A DNA stretch of 64,000 bases from an uncultured Gemmatimonadota bacterium (GTDB lineage: Bacteria; Gemmatimonadota; Gemmatimonadetes; Gemmatimonadales; Gemmatimonadaceae): the NCBI GenBank assembly GCA_902825965.1, contig CADEDA010000002.1, positions 1-64,000 of the forward strand. Direction: 5' to 3'. Shown piece by piece: positions 1,810-25,683 of the stretch; position 1 is the first letter of the stretch; the number at the start of each line of letters is the position of its first letter. Position numbers and translations under genes: made by a program. Under the pieces are notes generated by a model. That model had not been told where the DNA came from, ran no database searches, and was given only the letters and a program-made list of their open reading frames with translations.

Positions 1810-2676
1810 CTACCGACGCGCCATCAGCACCAGCATGATCAGAGCCGCCAGTCGATAGAACAAGTACTCGAGCTGTGCGTCCTCCTCGATCTCGGTTTGC
1901 GCGACTTCGCTATGGCGGATATGGAACGTGTTTCCGATTCGGGTAAGTTCGAGGGCCTCTTCCTCCAAGAGCTTCCGGAACTCAGGTTCGCGCGCAGCGG
2001 CACTGAGCATCAGCTGAGTAGATCGCCTCTTGTCCGCAGGTTCGCTCAAAGACTTCAGGCGCTCCCACGCCTTCCACAGGAGCCCGAGTGCCTCACGACG
2101 GGCTGAAGGAGAGCGATTAGTGAATCGCTCCACCGCTTCCCGCAACAGCGAATCGAGCTTCTCATCGCCAGACGGCGGATAGTCCGATGTGACCAGTCCG
2201 GCGAGCGCAGCAGGAACCAACTGCTGCACCTCGCCCTCCTCCGACATCTGGTAGCGCAACCCGTTGCGTTGGAAGATGCGATTCACACGGATTCGCATCT
2301 CCCCCTGCCCACTCTCTCGACTGAAGGAGAGATGGCTATGGCCATAGTACTGGTGATGTTGGAACGGTTCCGCCTGAGCGATGCTCGCGTGGACAAACTC
2401 AATGATGTCCATGGCGACCGGCAGGGATGGCACGACCTCCGCTCGTAGAGGCCACTGAAGTCCGGGAATCTCCGAGCGAATCGCCAACTCCAACGCCTGC
2501 CGATCCGTGCCATAGATGGCGCTTCCATCCGGACACACTTCGGGGAATGCCTGCGCTAGACCACCGCTTGTCACGGCTGTGCTGACGAGCGCGACGATCC
2601 CTCCCCACGCATCGCCCGAAATCGCGGTCTCCGTTCTCGGCCTCGGGCCGCCTTCGCGATCACTGAAGTAAGGCAT
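1810..2676 (-). CDS. AbiJ-like protein with HEPN-type C-terminus
   Basis: This 288-residue protein (start at MPYFSDREGG; a GTG at 2724 would add 16 residues) matches my memory of AbiJ-related abortive-infection proteins: an N-terminal YFSDRE and WGGI region, a central segment with RIFQRNGLRYQMSEEGEVQ, and a C-terminal helical domain with EALGLLWKAWERLKSL and ELTRIGNTFHIRHSE. The R-x5-H in RIGNTFH and the following IRHSE resemble the catalytic R-x4-6-H of HEPN RNases. That assignment is inferred from motifs, not from a search. It is encoded divergently from the ParB-like/methylase pair, sharing a 141-base intergenic region (2677-2817). A role in phage defence is likely but unproven. No signal peptide is seen; the extreme C-terminus (LAALIMLVLMARR) is hydrophobic. 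Confidence 0.6.
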   Translation of the reverse strand: MPYFSDREGGPRPRTETAISGDAWGGIVALVSTAVTSGGLAQAFPEVCPDGSAIYGTDRQALELAIRSEIPGLQWPLRAEVVPSLPVAMDIIEFVHASIAQAEPFQHHQYYGHSHLSFSRESGQGEMRIRVNRIFQRNGLRYQMSEEGEVQQLVPAALAGLVTSDYPPSGDEKLDSLLREAVERFTNRSPSARREALGLLWKAWERLKSLSEPADKRRSTQLMLSAAAREPEFRKLLEEEALELTRIGNTFHIRHSEVAQTEIEEDAQLEYLFYRLAALIMLVLMARR

Positions 2677-2817
2677 CGTCCAGCTCGTTCTCTCGGCAGC
2701 AAGGGTTCCGAGCGACTCAGCCACCGACTGGCAGCTTATGCGCCCACACTACAAGTTAGTTGGCGCGAACAGACGTGAAAGCGATGGTCGCCGCACGCCC
2801 CCTTCAGACTCCCGCCT

Positions 2818-4158
2818 ATGACTGAGCTGCGTGAAATCCCACTGAGCCTCCTGCGCTTGGACACGGACAATCCGCGCCTTGATGACGGCAAGCAGACGCA
2901 GGTACATGCGCTGCAGGCGATGATGAAGGCTCAGGGCGAGAAGCTCGTCGTGCTCGGGAGGGACATCGCGAAGAACGGACTAAATCCCCTCGACAACTTC
3001 ATGGTGGTTGCGGCCGACGACAACGCGGATGAGTTCGTAGTCCTCGAAGGGAACCGACGGATCACGACACTCAAGTTGCTCGCGAATCCGTCTCTGGGCG
3101 ACGGGGTGCTGTCCAAGGCGCAGGTGACCAAACTGCAGGCTGCCGCAGCTGAGGCCAGGTTCACTCCGGACACAGAAGTCACTTGCGTCGTGATGCCGAG
3201 TCGCGACGAGGCTATCCATTGGCTACGCCTTCGTCATGGTGGAGAATTGGGCGGGGCCGGCGTTGTGCAATGGGGTGCAACAGAACGTGAGCGCTTCGAA
3301 GCCCGCGCCGATAAGGAGTCACCGGAGCTGCAGGTCCTCCATCTGCTAGTCAGTCAGGGGCACTTGACGCTCGACGAGGCGAACGATGTTCCGATTACCA
3401 GCCTCCGTCGCCTACTGCGGGATGCTGCCGTGCGAAAGACTCTCGGCATTGAGATCGACCGAAAGGAGAAGTCCGTCACCTCACACTTCCCGGGCAAGGA
3501 AGTGCTCAAGGGCCTCCGTGCGGTGGCGCATCGCCTCGCGAATCCGAACTTCAAGGTCCGTGACATCTACGATGAGGACAACCGCGCTGAGTTTATGAAG
3601 TCCTTCACAGTGAACGAGCTGCCGAGTCCGAAGTCGAAGCTGGGCAGTCCGGTGAACCTCGCCGAAGCGGTCGGCTCCGTCACCCCGGCGACTAAGCCCT
3701 CATCGTCTGGGGTCGGGAGCCGCGCGAAGCACCGGGCCAACGTCGCGCCAAGTACACCCCGACTCAAGATCGGTCAGGCCCGCCTCAAGGACATCTACAT
3801 CGAACTGCAGCACCTCAAGCTTGAGAAGCACACGAACGCGGGCGGCGTGCTCCTTCGAGTCTTCTTAGAACTCACCGTCGACAACTACCTCACTAAGCAC
3901 AAGATCACAATCAAGAAGGCCGATCCGAAACTAAAGGACAAGCTCCAGGCCGTGCATGACGACATGCTGGCGAAGGGCACCATGACCAAGCCTGCCCTCG
4001 CCCCCGTCAGGAAGGCGATCAGCGACGCCGGGATGCTGGCGACCTCGATTACCGCCTTCAACCAGTACGTACACAACGAGAAGCTGTCGCCGTCGCCGAC
4101 CGACGTGCGGGTAGGATGGGACAATCTGCAGGAGTTCTTCGTCAGTATCTGGGCGTAG
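2818..4158 (+). CDS. ParB/sulfiredoxin-fold protein with helical C-terminal domain
   Basis: In 446 residues, the first 110 form a ParB/Srx-like domain: EIPLSLLRLDTDNPRL at the start and the signature VVLEGNRRITTLKLL, with GNRR at residues 78-81 standing where ParB proteins have their phosphate-binding GxRR. The middle (110-300) is unassigned. The last 135 residues form a helical domain with GGVLLRVFLELTVDNYL and a final YVHN...WDNLQEFF that is reminiscent of helical domains in other defence-associated proteins. ParB-fold domains bind CTP or, in some families, act as nucleases; which applies here cannot be told. The start is ATG 2818. The adenine methylase begins 25 bases after its stop, so the two are probably one transcript. 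Confidence 0.7.
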   Translation: MTELREIPLSLLRLDTDNPRLDDGKQTQVHALQAMMKAQGEKLVVLGRDIAKNGLNPLDNFMVVAADDNADEFVVLEGNRRITTLKLLANPSLGDGVLSKAQVTKLQAAAAEARFTPDTEVTCVVMPSRDEAIHWLRLRHGGELGGAGVVQWGATERERFEARADKESPELQVLHLLVSQGHLTLDEANDVPITSLRRLLRDAAVRKTLGIEIDRKEKSVTSHFPGKEVLKGLRAVAHRLANPNFKVRDIYDEDNRAEFMKSFTVNELPSPKSKLGSPVNLAEAVGSVTPATKPSSSGVGSRAKHRANVAPSTPRLKIGQARLKDIYIELQHLKLEKHTNAGGVLLRVFLELTVDNYLTKHKITIKKADPKLKDKLQAVHDDMLAKGTMTKPALAPVRKAISDAGMLATSITAFNQYVHNEKLSPSPTDVRVGWDNLQEFFVSIWA

Positions 4159-19486: not shown

Positions 19487-19552
19487 TTACTTCTTCTTCG
19501 CGGCCTTCTTCTTGGTCGCCTTCTTCGCGGCCTTCTTCTTCTTGGCAGCCAT
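19487..19552 (-). CDS. Lys/Ala-rich microprotein, 21 residues
   Basis: On the minus strand, ATG 19552 follows AAGGAG by eight bases (an excellent ribosome site). The 21-residue product consists only of Met, Ala, Lys and one Thr, in AAKK/KAAKK blocks, and stops with TAA 19487-19489. It resembles the tails of histone H1-like bacterial proteins and the C-terminal tail of the NYN protein at 30436. It lies 119 bases downstream of the last pmbA gene on the same strand and could be the final cistron of that operon or a separate unit. DNA or RNA binding by charge is likely; any specific role is unknown. The strong ribosome site argues that it is translated. Confidence 0.6.
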   Translation of the reverse strand: MAAKKKKAAKKATKKKAAKKK

Positions 19553-19671: not shown

Positions 19672-21081
19672 TCAGACAGCCTCGGAGAGGCTGGTGAAGT
19701 TGAAATCGCGGACCTTCAGCGCCGGCATCGAGACCGCTCCACCGGCTTCCGTCCCTGCGATCCGCTCTGAAGGACCGAGCATCTCGAGGTTGTTGAGCAT
19801 GAACAACGGTGACTCATTGAACCGCAAATTGCGAATCGAGCGCGAAATTCTTCCCTCTTCAATAAGGAAAGTCCCGTCGCGTGTCAATCCCGTGTAAAGA
19901 ATGGTGCGTGGATCGACTTCGCGCAAATACCACAACCGGGTGACCAGGATACCCCGCGCCGTGCTCTTGATCATCGCGTCCAGCGAGCTCGTGCCGCCGG
20001 CCATCTTGAGCGAGGTCGCGCCGCCGGTCGGCGTCTTGCCCTGCTTCTTCGCCCAGAACCGCGAGTACTGCAGCTGCTTCAAGTTGCCGTTCTCGACCCA
20101 CACCTGCCGCGCGATCGGGAGCCCTTCGCCGTCGAACGGCTGCGCGAGCAACTGCGGATCGGCGGGATCCGAGTAGATCGTCACCCGGGTATCGACGATC
20201 TTCTCACCGACTTTGTTACCACCGCCCTGCTTGGAGAACGGCGAGCGGCCTTCGTCCGCTTGGCGCGCGTCGGCGTAGAACGCGACGAGTCCGGCGAGGT
20301 CGCCCACCGCCTGCGGCTCGAGGATGACGGTGTAGCGCCCGGGTTCGATCGCCTGCGGATTGCGCGACGCCCGCGCCTTCTCGATCGCGCGGGCGCTCAC
20401 GCGCTCGAAGTCGATCTGGCGCCAGTCGGGATGGTCCGCACCCGCCCAGCCCGACCCCGTGCCGTCCGTGGTACGCACGGTGAGCGTGTAGTTCACGTTG
20501 GTCGCGCGATGGTACGCGAACATGCCCTTGTTGTTGCCGAGCGCGCTGCAGCCGGCGGTGGCGACGAGATAGCCGGCCGCCTTGATGTCCCCGGCCTTCC
20601 GCGCCGGCGCGAGTGCCGTGAGCGCGGCCTGCGCGCGCTCGGCCGCCCCGATGTTCGCCGTGGAGTCGAGATAGGCGGCGACGTCCACGTAGCGCTGCGG
20701 CTCGAGTTCCGGCATCGCCTCCGGGTCGTCGGGCGCCAGCTTGGCCAGCACCTCCGACTGCTGGACGCAGCGGCGGAGGGACTCCTCCGAGAGGTCGTTG
20801 GTGGTCACCACCGCATGCTTGGGCCCGTACGACGACTGGACCGCGACCCCCGCGTCCGTCACCGCGCCCGCGGTGCTCATCTGGTTGTCGGCGAAGCGGA
20901 CGTTGGTGGTGTGGTTGGTGCCGATCGAGACGTTGATCGAGTCGGCCTTGGACATCCTCACCACGCGTTCGATGATCGCCTGGGCCTCGGCGCGCGAGAG
21001 GATCGCGCCTGCCGGAAGTGCGCTCGGCAGCCCGGTCGGGAGCGCGTTCGGCCCCTGCATCAGGCTCTTGGGTGCGGTCAT
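19672..21081 (-). CDS. PmbA/TldE-family protein (copy 2)
   Basis: The 469-residue protein begins MTAPKSLMQG with no export signal. Family features include ADNQMSTAG near residue 65, FAYHRATNVNYTLTVRTTDG, GTGSGWAG, IEPGRYTVILEP, an SPFSKQGGGNKVGEKI segment, and a C-terminal NLRFNESPLFMLNNLE. It lacks the HExxxH of TldD, as expected for PmbA/TldE, the non-catalytic partner of the TldD/TldE metalloprotease that trims unfolded peptides such as RiPP precursors and CcdA. Its ATG overlaps the stop of the upstream tldD (ATGA). It is the last large gene of a four-gene operon. Confidence 0.9.
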   Translation of the reverse strand: MTAPKSLMQGPNALPTGLPSALPAGAILSRAEAQAIIERVVRMSKADSINVSIGTNHTTNVRFADNQMSTAGAVTDAGVAVQSSYGPKHAVVTTNDLSEESLRRCVQQSEVLAKLAPDDPEAMPELEPQRYVDVAAYLDSTANIGAAERAQAALTALAPARKAGDIKAAGYLVATAGCSALGNNKGMFAYHRATNVNYTLTVRTTDGTGSGWAGADHPDWRQIDFERVSARAIEKARASRNPQAIEPGRYTVILEPQAVGDLAGLVAFYADARQADEGRSPFSKQGGGNKVGEKIVDTRVTIYSDPADPQLLAQPFDGEGLPIARQVWVENGNLKQLQYSRFWAKKQGKTPTGGATSLKMAGGTSSLDAMIKSTARGILVTRLWYLREVDPRTILYTGLTRDGTFLIEEGRISRSIRNLRFNESPLFMLNNLEMLGPSERIAGTEAGGAVSMPALKVRDFNFTSLSEAV

Positions 21082-22697
21082 TGGGTCCGTCCGGTGTTGA
21101 TCACGTTGACCTGGCGGAAGCGCGCCGGCGGGGAGCCGTGGCTCACGGCGTTGCTCTGGCTGGGCTGCCCCTTGCCGTCGAAGAACGAGCCACCGAGTTC
21201 GTAGGTCGCCTTGCCGCCGATCGCGTCCATGGAGTTCCAGAAGTCCGGCGTGCGGATCTGGTAGGCGACGTCCTTGAGCATGCCGACGACCTTCCCGCCG
21301 CGGATCTCGTAGGTCACCTGCCCGCCGAACTGCGCGTTGTAGCGCTGTTGGTCGATGGAGAAGGAGCCGTCGCCCACGATGGCGATGCCGCGGTCCACGC
21401 CGGCGATGAGGTCGTCCCAGCTCGTGTTGTCGTTGCCGGGCAGCAGGGAGACGTTGGGCATGCGCTGGAAGGCGACGCTGCCCCAGCTGTCGGCGTAGGA
21501 GCAGCCGTGCGAGCGCACGGGCTTGCCCTGCTTGGCGTACCAGTCGGCGAGCCAGGGGGCCTGCTCGCGCGTGGTCTGGTAGTCGTTGAACATGCCGTCC
21601 TTCACGATGAGGAACTCGTCCGGCTGCACGCCGTCATCGTCGTAGCCGACGGTGGCGAGCGCCCCGGCCTGCGAGCGGTCACCCTGGATGTTCATGAGCG
21701 GCTTGCCGTACTGCAGCTTGCCGAGCTTCTCCTCGGGCGGCGCGATGAAGCTGGTGCCGGCGTAGTTGGCCTCGTAGCCCAGCGCGCGGTCGAGCTCCGT
21801 CGGATGGCCGATGGACTCGTGGATGGTGAGCCAGAGGTTGGACGGGGCGAGCACGAGGTCGTATTTGCCGACCTCGACCGGCTTGGCCTTGAGCTTCTCG
21901 GCGGCCTGCTCCGCCCACTTGCGGGCGTTGCCGGGGAGGTCGCACTGGACGACGTACTCGTAGCCGCGGCCCATCGGGGCGGCCTCGGAGCCCTGGCGGT
22001 TCTGGAAGTCCGAGAAGTCCGGTGCGACCGCCGTGGCCGTGAAGAGCGGCCAGCTGCGGATCAGCGTCTGGTCGATCACCGAGCCCTCGGTGCTGGCGAA
22101 CTGCCGCTCCTGCTTCACGAAGAACAGGACCGAGTTCACGAACTTCACGTTGGCGACCTTCATCGCCTCGGCGTTGGACTTGAGCAGGAGGTCCACCTTC
22201 TGCTCGAGCGGCACCTCGAAGGGATCGGTGGTGTAGGGCGACTTCCACGTGGCGTTGGGATACGCCGGCGTGGGGGCCAGCGTGACCGCGCGGTCGCGCG
22301 CGACGCGGTTGGCCTTGGCGATGGCCACCGCCTCGCGGGCGGCGGTGGTGACACCCTCCCGCGTGAGCGTACGCGTCGCCGCGAATCCCCAGCAGCCGTC
22401 CACGAGGGCGCGCACACCGCAGCCCAGCGTGTCGGTGTCCACCACGTTCACGATCTGCTGCTCACGGGTGACGACGAAGTTCTGCCGGAACCGCGCGATG
22501 CGGCAGTCGGCGTAGGAGGCGCCGGCGACCTTCGCGGCGTTGATCGCCTCCAGCAGCAGCTCCTTGGAGGCTCCGCTCTGGAATCGATCGAGATCGTCGT
22601 ACCTCGGGGCGGCCTCGGCGCGTCGTGGGGCGGACGCGAGAGCGAGGGCCGCCGCGGCGGCTCCGGTGGTCCGGAGGAATTCCCTGCGATCGGTCAT
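21078..22697 (-). CDS. TldD-family metalloprotease with Tat signal (copy 2)
   Basis: The 539-residue protein starts MTDRREFLRTTGAAAAALAL, a twin-arginine signal (RREFLRT) followed by a hydrophobic stretch and an AEA-type cleavage region. The metalloprotease motif HESIGH (HExxxH) lies in WLTIHESIGHPTELDRA. The family elements GYEANYAGTSF, SHGCSYADSW, GDGSFSIDQQRYNAQFGGQ and the C-terminal QVNVINTGRT are present. Its ATG shares one base with the stop of the upstream pmbA (TGATG) and its stop overlaps the next pmbA. Export through Tat would place it in the periplasm, unlike the cytosolic E. coli TldD. Confidence 0.93.
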   Translation of the reverse strand: MTDRREFLRTTGAAAAALALASAPRRAEAAPRYDDLDRFQSGASKELLLEAINAAKVAGASYADCRIARFRQNFVVTREQQIVNVVDTDTLGCGVRALVDGCWGFAATRTLTREGVTTAAREAVAIAKANRVARDRAVTLAPTPAYPNATWKSPYTTDPFEVPLEQKVDLLLKSNAEAMKVANVKFVNSVLFFVKQERQFASTEGSVIDQTLIRSWPLFTATAVAPDFSDFQNRQGSEAAPMGRGYEYVVQCDLPGNARKWAEQAAEKLKAKPVEVGKYDLVLAPSNLWLTIHESIGHPTELDRALGYEANYAGTSFIAPPEEKLGKLQYGKPLMNIQGDRSQAGALATVGYDDDGVQPDEFLIVKDGMFNDYQTTREQAPWLADWYAKQGKPVRSHGCSYADSWGSVAFQRMPNVSLLPGNDNTSWDDLIAGVDRGIAIVGDGSFSIDQQRYNAQFGGQVTYEIRGGKVVGMLKDVAYQIRTPDFWNSMDAIGGKATYELGGSFFDGKGQPSQSNAVSHGSPPARFRQVNVINTGRTQ

Positions 22698-24067
22698 CAG
22701 ATGGCGTCGCTCGTGCTGGTGAAGTTGAAATCGCGGCACTTGAGCGGCGGCACGATGATCGCCTGCCCAGGACCACCCGCCTCCGAGGCGCTCACACGCT
22801 CGGGGCGGCCCATCATCTGCAGGTTGTTGAGCATGAAGATGGGGGACTCGTTGTAGCGCAGGTTCTTGACCGGGCGCGTCACCTTGCCGTTCTCGATGAG
22901 GAAGGTGCCATCCCGGGTGAGGCCGGTGAACAGGATGGTGCGGGGATCGACGCTGCGGATGTACCAGAAGCGCGTCACCAGGATACCGCGCTCGGTGGAG
23001 GCGATCATCTCCTCCATGGAGCTGCTGCCACCCGACATCGCCAGCGTGCCGCCGGCGGAGACGGGCGCCTTGCCCGTGCGCTGGGCCCAGAAGCGGTCGT
23101 ACGCGAGGTTCCGCACGACGCCGTTCTCGATCCAGGTGACCTTCTGCGTCGGGAGGCCGTCGCCGCCGAACGTGCCGGACGGCACCCGCGGATCGAACGG
23201 ATCCGACACCAAGGTCACGCGCTCGTCTACGACCTTCTCGCCGATCTTGTTTCCGCCGCCGGCCTTGGAGAAGAAGGAGCGCCCCTCGTCGGCGTTGCGT
23301 GCATTGAGGGCACCCCCGATGAGCTGGACGAGGTTCGCGACCGCCGTGGGCTCGAGGATCACGGTGTAGCGTCCGGGCTCGATCGCCACCGGATTGACCG
23401 ACTTGCGCGCCTTCTCGATCGCCCGCTCGGCGAGCAACCGGGGGTCGATGCGCCGGAAGTCGTTGTCGCTGGCCCCGGCCCACCCGGAGCCCGTGCCGTC
23501 CGGTGTCCGCACGGTGGTCGTGAACGCGACCGCCGTGCTGCGGTCGTAGGCGAACAGGCCCTTGTTGTTGGCCACGGCGAAGGAGCCGGCGTTGGCCTCC
23601 AGGTACCCGGTCGAGACCAGTCCCGCGCGGCGGGCGGGCTCGGTGATCGCCCGCACCGCCTCGGCGCGGGCCTCGGGCTCGAGCGACGCCGTGGCATCGC
23701 TCCACTGCACCGAGGGCGGTACGTCCTGCGGACCCAGTTCCGGCAGCAGCTCCGGATCCTCCGGCGCCAGCCGGGCGATGCGCTCCGCATTCTGCACGGC
23801 CGCCCGCAGCGAGGCGTCGTCCAGGCGATTGACGGTCACGTTCGCCGAGCGCTTGCCGATGACGGAGCGCACGGTGACGGCGGCGTTGTAGTTGTCACCG
23901 GCGGTGGAGATCTGGTTCACCGCGAACCGCGTGTTCTGGCGCATGCCGCTGTTGATCGAGACGCGGCATTCGTCAGCGGTGGAGAAGGACAGCACCTTCT
24001 TCGCGATGGCGTCACACTCGGCGCGGGAGAGGTGCGGGGCGATGGCGTAGAGCGACTTGGGCGTCAT
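22697..24067 (-). CDS. PmbA/TldE-family protein (copy 1)
   Basis: The 456-residue protein (MTPKSLYAIAPHLSRAECDA) lacks any signal sequence and the HExxxH motif. It aligns by eye along its length with the copy at 19672: shared blocks include VRTPDGTGSGWAG, IEPGRYTVILEPTAVANL, KAGGGNKIGEKVVDERVTL, GLTRDGTFLIENGK and NLRYNESPIFMLNNLQ. It is the expected partner of the TldD encoded immediately upstream. Both junctions are overlapping (TGA/ATG), so translation of the whole operon is coupled. Confidence 0.92.
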   Translation of the reverse strand: MTPKSLYAIAPHLSRAECDAIAKKVLSFSTADECRVSINSGMRQNTRFAVNQISTAGDNYNAAVTVRSVIGKRSANVTVNRLDDASLRAAVQNAERIARLAPEDPELLPELGPQDVPPSVQWSDATASLEPEARAEAVRAITEPARRAGLVSTGYLEANAGSFAVANNKGLFAYDRSTAVAFTTTVRTPDGTGSGWAGASDNDFRRIDPRLLAERAIEKARKSVNPVAIEPGRYTVILEPTAVANLVQLIGGALNARNADEGRSFFSKAGGGNKIGEKVVDERVTLVSDPFDPRVPSGTFGGDGLPTQKVTWIENGVVRNLAYDRFWAQRTGKAPVSAGGTLAMSGGSSSMEEMIASTERGILVTRFWYIRSVDPRTILFTGLTRDGTFLIENGKVTRPVKNLRYNESPIFMLNNLQMMGRPERVSASEAGGPGQAIIVPPLKCRDFNFTSTSDAI

Positions 24068-25683
24068 CAGGCGGTCCTCCCGGTGTTGATCACGTTCACC
24101 TGCCGGTGCCGCGTGGGAGGACATCCATGGGACACCGCATTGGACTGCGAGGGTTGCCCCTTGCCGTCGCCGAAGGCACCGCCGAGTTCGTAGCTGCGCT
24201 TGCCGCCGATCATGTCGAGTGCGTTCCAGAACTCGGGGGTCCGGATCTGGTAGGCGACATCCTTGAGCATGCCGGTGATCTTGCCGTTCTTCACCTCGTA
24301 GAACAGCTGGCCGCCGAACTGCGCGTTGTAGCGCTGTTGGTCGATGGAGAACGAGCCGTCGCCGATGATGGCGATGCCGTTCTCGGTGGCGGCGATGAGG
24401 TCCTCCCACACGAGGTCCTGCTCCCCCGGCAGGAGGTTGACGTTGGGCATGCGCTGGAACTGGACGTCGGCCCAGGTCTGCGCGTAGGAGCAGCCGTGCG
24501 ACCGCGTGGGCTTGCCCTGCTGCTTGTACCACCAGTCGAGCCACATCGCCTGCTCGCGCGTGGTCTGGTAGTCCACGAACATGCCGTCCTTGACGATGTA
24601 GAAGTCCTCGGGCTGCACCCCCTCGTCGTCCCAGCCGCAGGCGGAGAGCGAGCCCGGCGCCGAGCGGTCGGCGAGCACGTTCATGAAGCGCGGGCCCATG
24701 CGGAACTTCCCGAGCTTGTCCTCCGGCGGCGCGAGGTAGCTCGTCCCGGCGTAGTTGGCCTCGAAGCCGTAGGCCCGGTCGAGCTCGGTGGGATGGGCGA
24801 TGGCCTCGTGGATGGTGAGCCAGAGATGCGTCGGGTGCAGGATCAGGTCGTAGCGTCCGACCTCCACCGGCTTGGCGCTCAGCTTCTGCTTGGCCTCCTC
24901 GGCCCAGCGCGCGGCGTGGCGCTTGAGGTCGGCGTCGAGCACGTGCTCGTAGCCGAGTCCCTTGGGCTGGATGTCGGTGGACTGCCGCGTCTGGAAGTCG
25001 CGGTTGTCGGGCGAGACCATGGTGACGGTCATGCCCGGCTGCGCGCGGAAGATGGTCTGCTGCGTGACGGTGCCGAGCGTGTTGGCGAAGGTCTTCTCGT
25101 CGCGCAGGAAGAACATCTGCGAGTTCACGAACCGCGCACCGGCGGCGAGCGCGGCGGCGTTGGCTTCGAGCAGATACGCGACCTTGTCCTCGATGGCCAC
25201 GGTGAACGGGTCGACCTTGATCGGGCTGCGCCAGACGCCGTTGGGCACCGGCGGATGATGCACCGGCGCGAGCTCGACGGGCTTCACCATGGCCGCGGCG
25301 TTGGCACGGGCCTGTGCGACGGCCTGGCGCGCCACGCGGGTCACCTCGTCGGGCGTGAGGTTGCTGGAGGCGGCGAAGCCCCAAGCGCCGCGCACCAGCA
25401 CGCGCACGCCGAAGCCGAAGGTCTCGTTGTCACCGATGTTGGTGACCCGGCGCTCGCGGGTCCCGATGTTCTGCGACCGGGCGCTCGAGATGCGGGCGTC
25501 GGCGTACTCGGCGCCGGCGGCCTTGGCCGCGTCGATCGCGCGGAGCACGAGCTCCTTGTGGGACGGATCGCCCTGGAAGACGTGCGGCTGGGCCGCGACG
25601 GGGCGGGCCAACGAGGAGGCGAGTCCGACCGCCGCGGCAGCGGCGGCAGACTGCTGGAGGAACTCCCGACGTGAAGCGGTCAC
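24067..25683 (-). CDS. TldD-family metalloprotease with Tat signal (copy 1)
   Basis: GTG 25683 is preceded by GAGGGA six bases upstream and starts a 538-residue protein with SRREFLQQSAAAAAAVGLA, a twin-arginine signal. The active site is HEAIAH in WLTIHEAIAHPTELDRA. Most conserved blocks are shared with copy 2 (FEANYAGTSYLAPPEDKLGK, GCSYAQTWADVQFQRMPN, IDQQRYNAQFGGQ, INTGRT). It heads the operon tldD-pmbA-tldD-pmbA, probably made by duplication of one pair. Metal-dependent peptide hydrolysis with PmbA is the family activity; the substrate is unknown. Confidence 0.93.
   Translation of the reverse strand: MTASRREFLQQSAAAAAAVGLASSLARPVAAQPHVFQGDPSHKELVLRAIDAAKAAGAEYADARISSARSQNIGTRERRVTNIGDNETFGFGVRVLVRGAWGFAASSNLTPDEVTRVARQAVAQARANAAAMVKPVELAPVHHPPVPNGVWRSPIKVDPFTVAIEDKVAYLLEANAAALAAGARFVNSQMFFLRDEKTFANTLGTVTQQTIFRAQPGMTVTMVSPDNRDFQTRQSTDIQPKGLGYEHVLDADLKRHAARWAEEAKQKLSAKPVEVGRYDLILHPTHLWLTIHEAIAHPTELDRAYGFEANYAGTSYLAPPEDKLGKFRMGPRFMNVLADRSAPGSLSACGWDDEGVQPEDFYIVKDGMFVDYQTTREQAMWLDWWYKQQGKPTRSHGCSYAQTWADVQFQRMPNVNLLPGEQDLVWEDLIAATENGIAIIGDGSFSIDQQRYNAQFGGQLFYEVKNGKITGMLKDVAYQIRTPEFWNALDMIGGKRSYELGGAFGDGKGQPSQSNAVSHGCPPTRHRQVNVINTGRTA

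Follow-up and report, generated by a model that had tools for sequence, protein, structure and literature searches.

TldD and TldE (PmbA) have so far been met in the cytosol, where they process microcins and possibly degrade an antitoxin. In the window, a stretch of 64,000 nucleotides of gemmatimonadotal DNA, two TldD/PmbA pairs lie in tandem and twin-arginine (Tat) signals are found on the TldD members only. This raises the question of whether PmbA is carried across the membrane together with TldD or the two partners are separated.

Two coupled pairs with a signal on one partner

The minus strand carries the four genes one after another as TldD1-PmbA1-TldD2-PmbA2, from 25683 to 19672 (Table 1). 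Each start overlaps the preceding stop by 1-4 bases, and the genes form two coupled TldD/PmbA pairs. All four proteins exceed the curated Pfam cut-offs for the PmbA/TldD domains PF01523, PF19290 and PF19289 and are thus members of the PmbA/TldD superfamily. The positions agree with the sequence-only reading, whose two tandem pairs are confirmed. An AlphaFold2 model of TldD2 had a pLDDT of 91, the signal peptide and a short loop excepted, and its best match among solved structures was E. coli TldD (5njf; Z 35.8, rmsd 3.3 over 460 residues). Further PmbA/TldD structures followed at Z >= 29.9, and the next fold was at Z < 4; the predicted fold of TldD2 is that of TldD. PmbA1 was predicted with a pLDDT of 94. 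A PDB sequence search with the TldD2 sequence alone gave no match, whereas the family profile did match E. coli TldD.

Table 1. Features of the two TldD/PmbA pairs in the window
Feature	Position	Strand	Remarks
TldD1 (D1)	24067..25683	-	538 aa, GTG start; HEAIAH; Asp506 in DGKGQP motif; Pfam and Tat models
Tat signal peptide of TldD1, MTASRREFLQQSAAAAAAVGLASSLARPVAA	25591..25683	-	putative cleavage after VAA
HExxxH metal-binding motif of TldD1 (HEAIAH, residues 292-297)	24793..24810	-	
Asp506 codon of TldD1, aligned with E. coli Cys454 (third metal ligand)	24166..24168	-	from alignment
PmbA1 (E1)	22697..24067	-	456 aa; no export signal, no HExxxH; ATG overlaps TldD1 stop
TldD2 (D2)	21078..22697	-	539 aa; HESIGH; Asp507 in DGKGQP motif
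Tat signal peptide of TldD2, MTDRREFLRTTGAAAAALALASAPRRAEAA	22608..22697	-	putative cleavage site
HExxxH motif of TldD2 (HESIGH, residues 293-298)	21804..21821	-	
Asp507 codon of TldD2, aligned with E. coli Cys454	21177..21179	-	from alignment
PmbA2 (E2)	19672..21081	-	469 aa; no export signal, no HExxxH; ATG overlaps TldD2 stop (ATGA)

The window pairs share with the heterodimeric metalloprotease TldD/TldE of E. coli (5nj5, 5njf) the modelled TldD2 fold, the HExxxH motif and an inactive PmbA partner; on inspection, HExxxH was absent from both PmbAs of the window and from the related PmbAs. They differ from it by the Tat signal on TldD, by Asp in place of Cys454, by an identity of ~20% and by the presence of three pairs in one genome. 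The NCBI TldD equivalogs NF008006 and NF040952 gave 35-113 bits against cut-offs of 513 and 635.

The NCBI twin-arginine signal model TIGR01409 (cut-off 16.7 bits) was passed by TldD1 with 19.9 bits and by TldD2 with 20.7 bits, and had no match in PmbA1 or PmbA2. PF10518 scored the TldD2 signal at 19.5 bits, below its cut-off of 22.7. Both TldD N-termini (Table 1) combine the twin-arginine motif with a hydrophobic stretch, in contrast to the PmbA N-termini MTPKSLYAIAPHLSRAEC and MTAPKSLMQGPNALPTGLPSAL, and the genome encodes one TatC and one TatA/B/E. A third TldD/PmbA pair on another contig, C4 (L007:3255-4880 and 1822-3258), shows the same asymmetry, which further upholds the claim that Tat signals are confined to the TldDs. 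The six family members found in the genome make up these three pairs, and no signal-less TldD is among them. The pairs in the window are flanked by genes for a DNA glycosylase, a cation efflux protein, an unassigned protein and a histidine kinase, and there was no sign of a peptide-maturation cluster among these neighbours. Just downstream of PmbA2, a lysine-rich frame of 21 codons, MAAKKKKAAKKATKKKAAKKK, is preceded by a good ribosome-binding site (19487-19552, minus strand).

Spread and neighbourhood of the pairs in Gemmatimonadota

A scan of the genome collection returned almost only Gemmatimonadota, with the loci closest to the window in Gemmatimonadaceae, and no relative was found in the viral contigs searched. 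The first sample combined 80 loci of public genomes with 30 of a phylum sample and yielded 123 distinct TldDs, in all 123 of which an N-terminal RRx[FLIVMY] precedes a hydrophobic stretch. When signal peptides were surveyed across homologous operons with start codons placed, as the sequence-only reading had proposed, the Tat model matched 70/90 TldDs at E <= 0.1 and 0/98 PmbAs, which indicates that the asymmetry is not due to chance. Nor does any PmbA begin with a hydrophobic segment like that of a signal. We also considered alternative PmbA starts with a twin-arginine, and rejected them because most of the RR strings are read in a different frame of the overlapping TldD gene and a signal-like hydrophobic stretch follows none of them. 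Among 127 complete pairs, stop and start codons overlap in 98, and 25 more have at most 30 bases between the genes. The same signal pattern was found in more distant clades from other families of the phylum, in some of which PmbA comes first. Thus, judged from signal peptides, the pattern of a Tat-type TldD with an untargeted PmbA is phylum-wide in Gemmatimonadota. Signal-less canonical TldD/PmbA pairs are also present in other families. A hand comparison of counts in 38 comparable Gemmatimonadaceae genomes gave, for 32 of them, a family total of exactly twice the number of Tat-TldDs, which leaves no cytosolic TldD for PmbA.

Lipobox-like ends of the Tat signals (IAGC, TGAC, TAAC, LAGC) were observed at L023:5872-7497, L023:8867-10507, L046:4898-6535 and L035:5995-7611, and these four TldDs are possible Tat lipoproteins. 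A gemmatimonadotal TldD was also found on a contig labelled Candidatus Kuenenia stuttgartiensis (L070, CALQGY020000047.1). Since a phylum search centred on its genome returned the Gemmatimonadota set, the label looks wrong.

Outside the genus of the window, genes for DUF4159, MoxR ATPase, DUF58 and BatA are frequent neighbours of the pairs, as in the orders TldD-PmbA-TldD-PmbA-DUF4159-MoxR (L129:5034-12700) and TldD-PmbA-DUF4159-MoxR-DUF58 (L132:473-6142). Such neighbours suggest a role of the Tat-TldD/PmbA pairs in the cell envelope. DUF4159 lies beside pairs in several deep clades; because almost the whole phylum has it, and the genome of the window carries it at a distance from the pairs, the link holds in some lineages as a tendency rather than as a rule. 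Pairs adjoining DUF4159, MoxR, DUF58 or BatA were also seen at L131, L154, L119, L121, L073, L051, L055 and L124-L128.

Proposed export of PmbA with TldD

We favour, with a probability of about 0.72, a mechanism in which the dimer is assembled in the cytosol and exported by Tat on the TldD signal with PmbA as a hitch-hiker. TldD and PmbA would be translated from one coupled message and would fold and pair in the cytosol, where TldD would also take up its metal. The folded dimer would then pass through Tat by means of the single signal peptide of TldD, with the signal-less PmbA co-transported. Peptidases of the TldD/TldE "pencil-sharpener" type would in this way be relocated across the cytoplasmic membrane. 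On that side, unfolded peptides would enter the hollow dimer and be cut by TldD, which would hold its metal by HExxxH and by an Asp at the place where cytosolic enzymes have Cys.

Known Tat hitch-hiking complexes are characterised by a signal on a single subunit (PMC10924467), and the E. coli hydrogenases, formate dehydrogenases and PaoABC likewise combine one twin-arginine subunit with a partner that lacks the signal (PMC10924467, PMC4273604). The PmbAs, with no match to the Tat model among 98, resemble such partners. Known hitch-hikers are mainly redox enzymes with large cofactors, whereas the complex in the window would be a peptidase; a peptidase exported with a catalytically dead partner would widen this range, and natural pairs with one signal each across a phylum offer a clean test case. 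The mean cysteine content of PmbAs was also considered as an export marker (1.4 in 144 partners of Tat-TldDs, 2.7 in 12 cytosolic proteins) and was set aside; the direction fits, but the comparison is weak because the groups are few and related.

The sequence-only reading had left hitch-hiking and separation side by side. If the partners were separated, TldD would be exported alone and form a homodimer outside, and PmbA would keep a cytosolic role of its own, for example as a homodimer. PmbA does lack a signal and forms homodimers in crystals, and a homodimeric TldD of Sulfolobus is reported as active, so that TldD might act alone outside (cited in PMC5810440). According to the same paper, activity in E. 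coli requires both TldD and TldE and the TldD homodimer is too unstable for purification. An exported TldD would thus probably be useless alone; a PmbA without catalytic site would be left inside, and the tight 1:1 coupling of the genes would have no obvious reason. We therefore regard separation as unlikely. The lack of a signal-less TldD in the genome, the phylum-wide translational coupling and the need for both subunits in E. coli indirectly favour hitch-hiking.

Alternatively, the twin-arginine N-terminus may be unused, or may merely anchor TldD in the inner membrane facing the cytosol, with the dimer inside as in E. coli. Signal predictions by themselves can mislead, and the Tat profile missed 20/90 TldDs at E 0.1. 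On the other hand, RR and F are invariant across 98 aligned TldDs whose identity to TldD1 falls as low as 29% (with some bias from the motif-based selection), even a clade without HExxxH retains the signal, and a lipobox directly follows the Tat region in 4/90 TldDs, which fits real export. An unused signal thus seems improbable, somewhat more so than separation. Independent export of PmbA by a route without a recognisable signal is the least credible explanation by a wide margin, as nothing was found in its favour and no Tat, Sec or lipoprotein-like N-terminus occurs among the 98 related PmbAs. Under the preferred hitch-hiking mechanism, a branch of the TldD/E proteases would act outside the cytoplasm, and its metal site would suit that environment.

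The metal site and the origin of the Tat-signal branch

In E. coli TldD, the metal is bound by His262, His267 and Cys454, and the clamp is tethered by Lys456 (PMC5810440). The family profile alignment places the E. coli C-GK motif opposite D-GKGQP of the window TldDs. Thus, near the C-terminus, where Cys would be expected as the third metal ligand, both window TldDs have Asp according to alignment and motif, a change from Cys at the metal site that the sequence-only reading had missed. In Mycobacterium, Nonomuraea, Pseudomonas and Burkholderia, relatives without the signal have CGKxxP at the aligned place. Among distinct full-length proteins with HExxxH, Asp occupies the Cys454 position in 151/151 Tat-TldDs and Cys in 15/15 signal-less TldDs. 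In 10 Tat-TldDs without HExxxH, Asp is gone too and is replaced by other residues. This joint loss supports Asp as a metal ligand, and we infer from these alignments that it is the third one in Tat-TldDs. An SHG[CSA] motif near the C-terminus (Cys, Ser or Ala; Ser in TldD2) was dropped as a candidate for a lost metal ligand, as Cys454 aligns with the Asp of DGKG.

The paper of Ghilarov et al. 2017 (PMC5810440) already remarks that Asp is able to replace Cys as the third ligand, for example in Gemmatimonas sp., whose TldD probably belongs to the same protein clade as those of the window; its discussion section makes no mention of a signal peptide, export or an untargeted partner. The Asp variant has thus been known since 2017, whereas its coincidence with a Tat signal was not found published. 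No literature joining TldD with Tat export was found in full texts, the coverage of which leaves out most subscription papers.

In a tree of 50 TldDs, the Tat group forms one side of a single branch (95/71 support, 96% of bootstrap trees), adjoined by the actinobacterial Cys proteins. Since the Tat and Asp traits fall on one branch, their association represents a single evolutionary event in this sample, not many independent ones. The nearest relatives outside the clade are signal-less pairs of Actinobacteria (Mycobacterium ulcerans plasmid, L159; Nonomuraea, L160), 44-47% identical to TldD2. The M. ulcerans pair has the gene order and overlap of the window, whereas both actinobacterial TldDs lack a Tat signal and keep Cys in NCGKxQP. 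TldD1 and TldD2 fall into separate old clades, and TldD2 is closer to the third TldD of the genome. Of 12 two-pair loci, 11 show each D tracking its own E more closely than the other one, and 2/12 are near ties. The pattern is consistent with dedicated pairs that duplicated as units, but co-divergence is expected of linked genes in any case, and a D/E mirror-tree correlation (r 0.94) was discounted as evidence of binding for the same linkage. Of the earlier alternative of two heterodimers or mixed pairing, the number falls short, the genome having three pairs, and 11/12 two-pair loci speak for dedicated pairing.

A wider scenario, which we put forward tentatively and at somewhat less than even odds, is that a TldD/E clade left the cytosol once. 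Its TldD would have gained a Tat signal and, on the same branch, a thiol-to-carboxylate ligand swap tolerating an oxidising compartment, with PmbA co-exported without a signal; the pair would later have joined a MoxR-DUF58-BatA-DUF4159 envelope module, and side branches would persist as exported pseudo-peptidases without an active site.

A branch of Tat-TldDs without HExxxH and Asp, still with Tat signals and PmbA partners, was observed in other genomes at L119:2271-10146, L121:2986-7734, L122, L123 and L120, with the order D-E-D-D-E in one genome; from its sequences it reads as exported pseudo-peptidases. TldD-like proteins that lack both a signal and HExxxH were found in other families of the phylum (L151, L152, L153, L148, L149); these are probably cytosolic pseudo-pairs.
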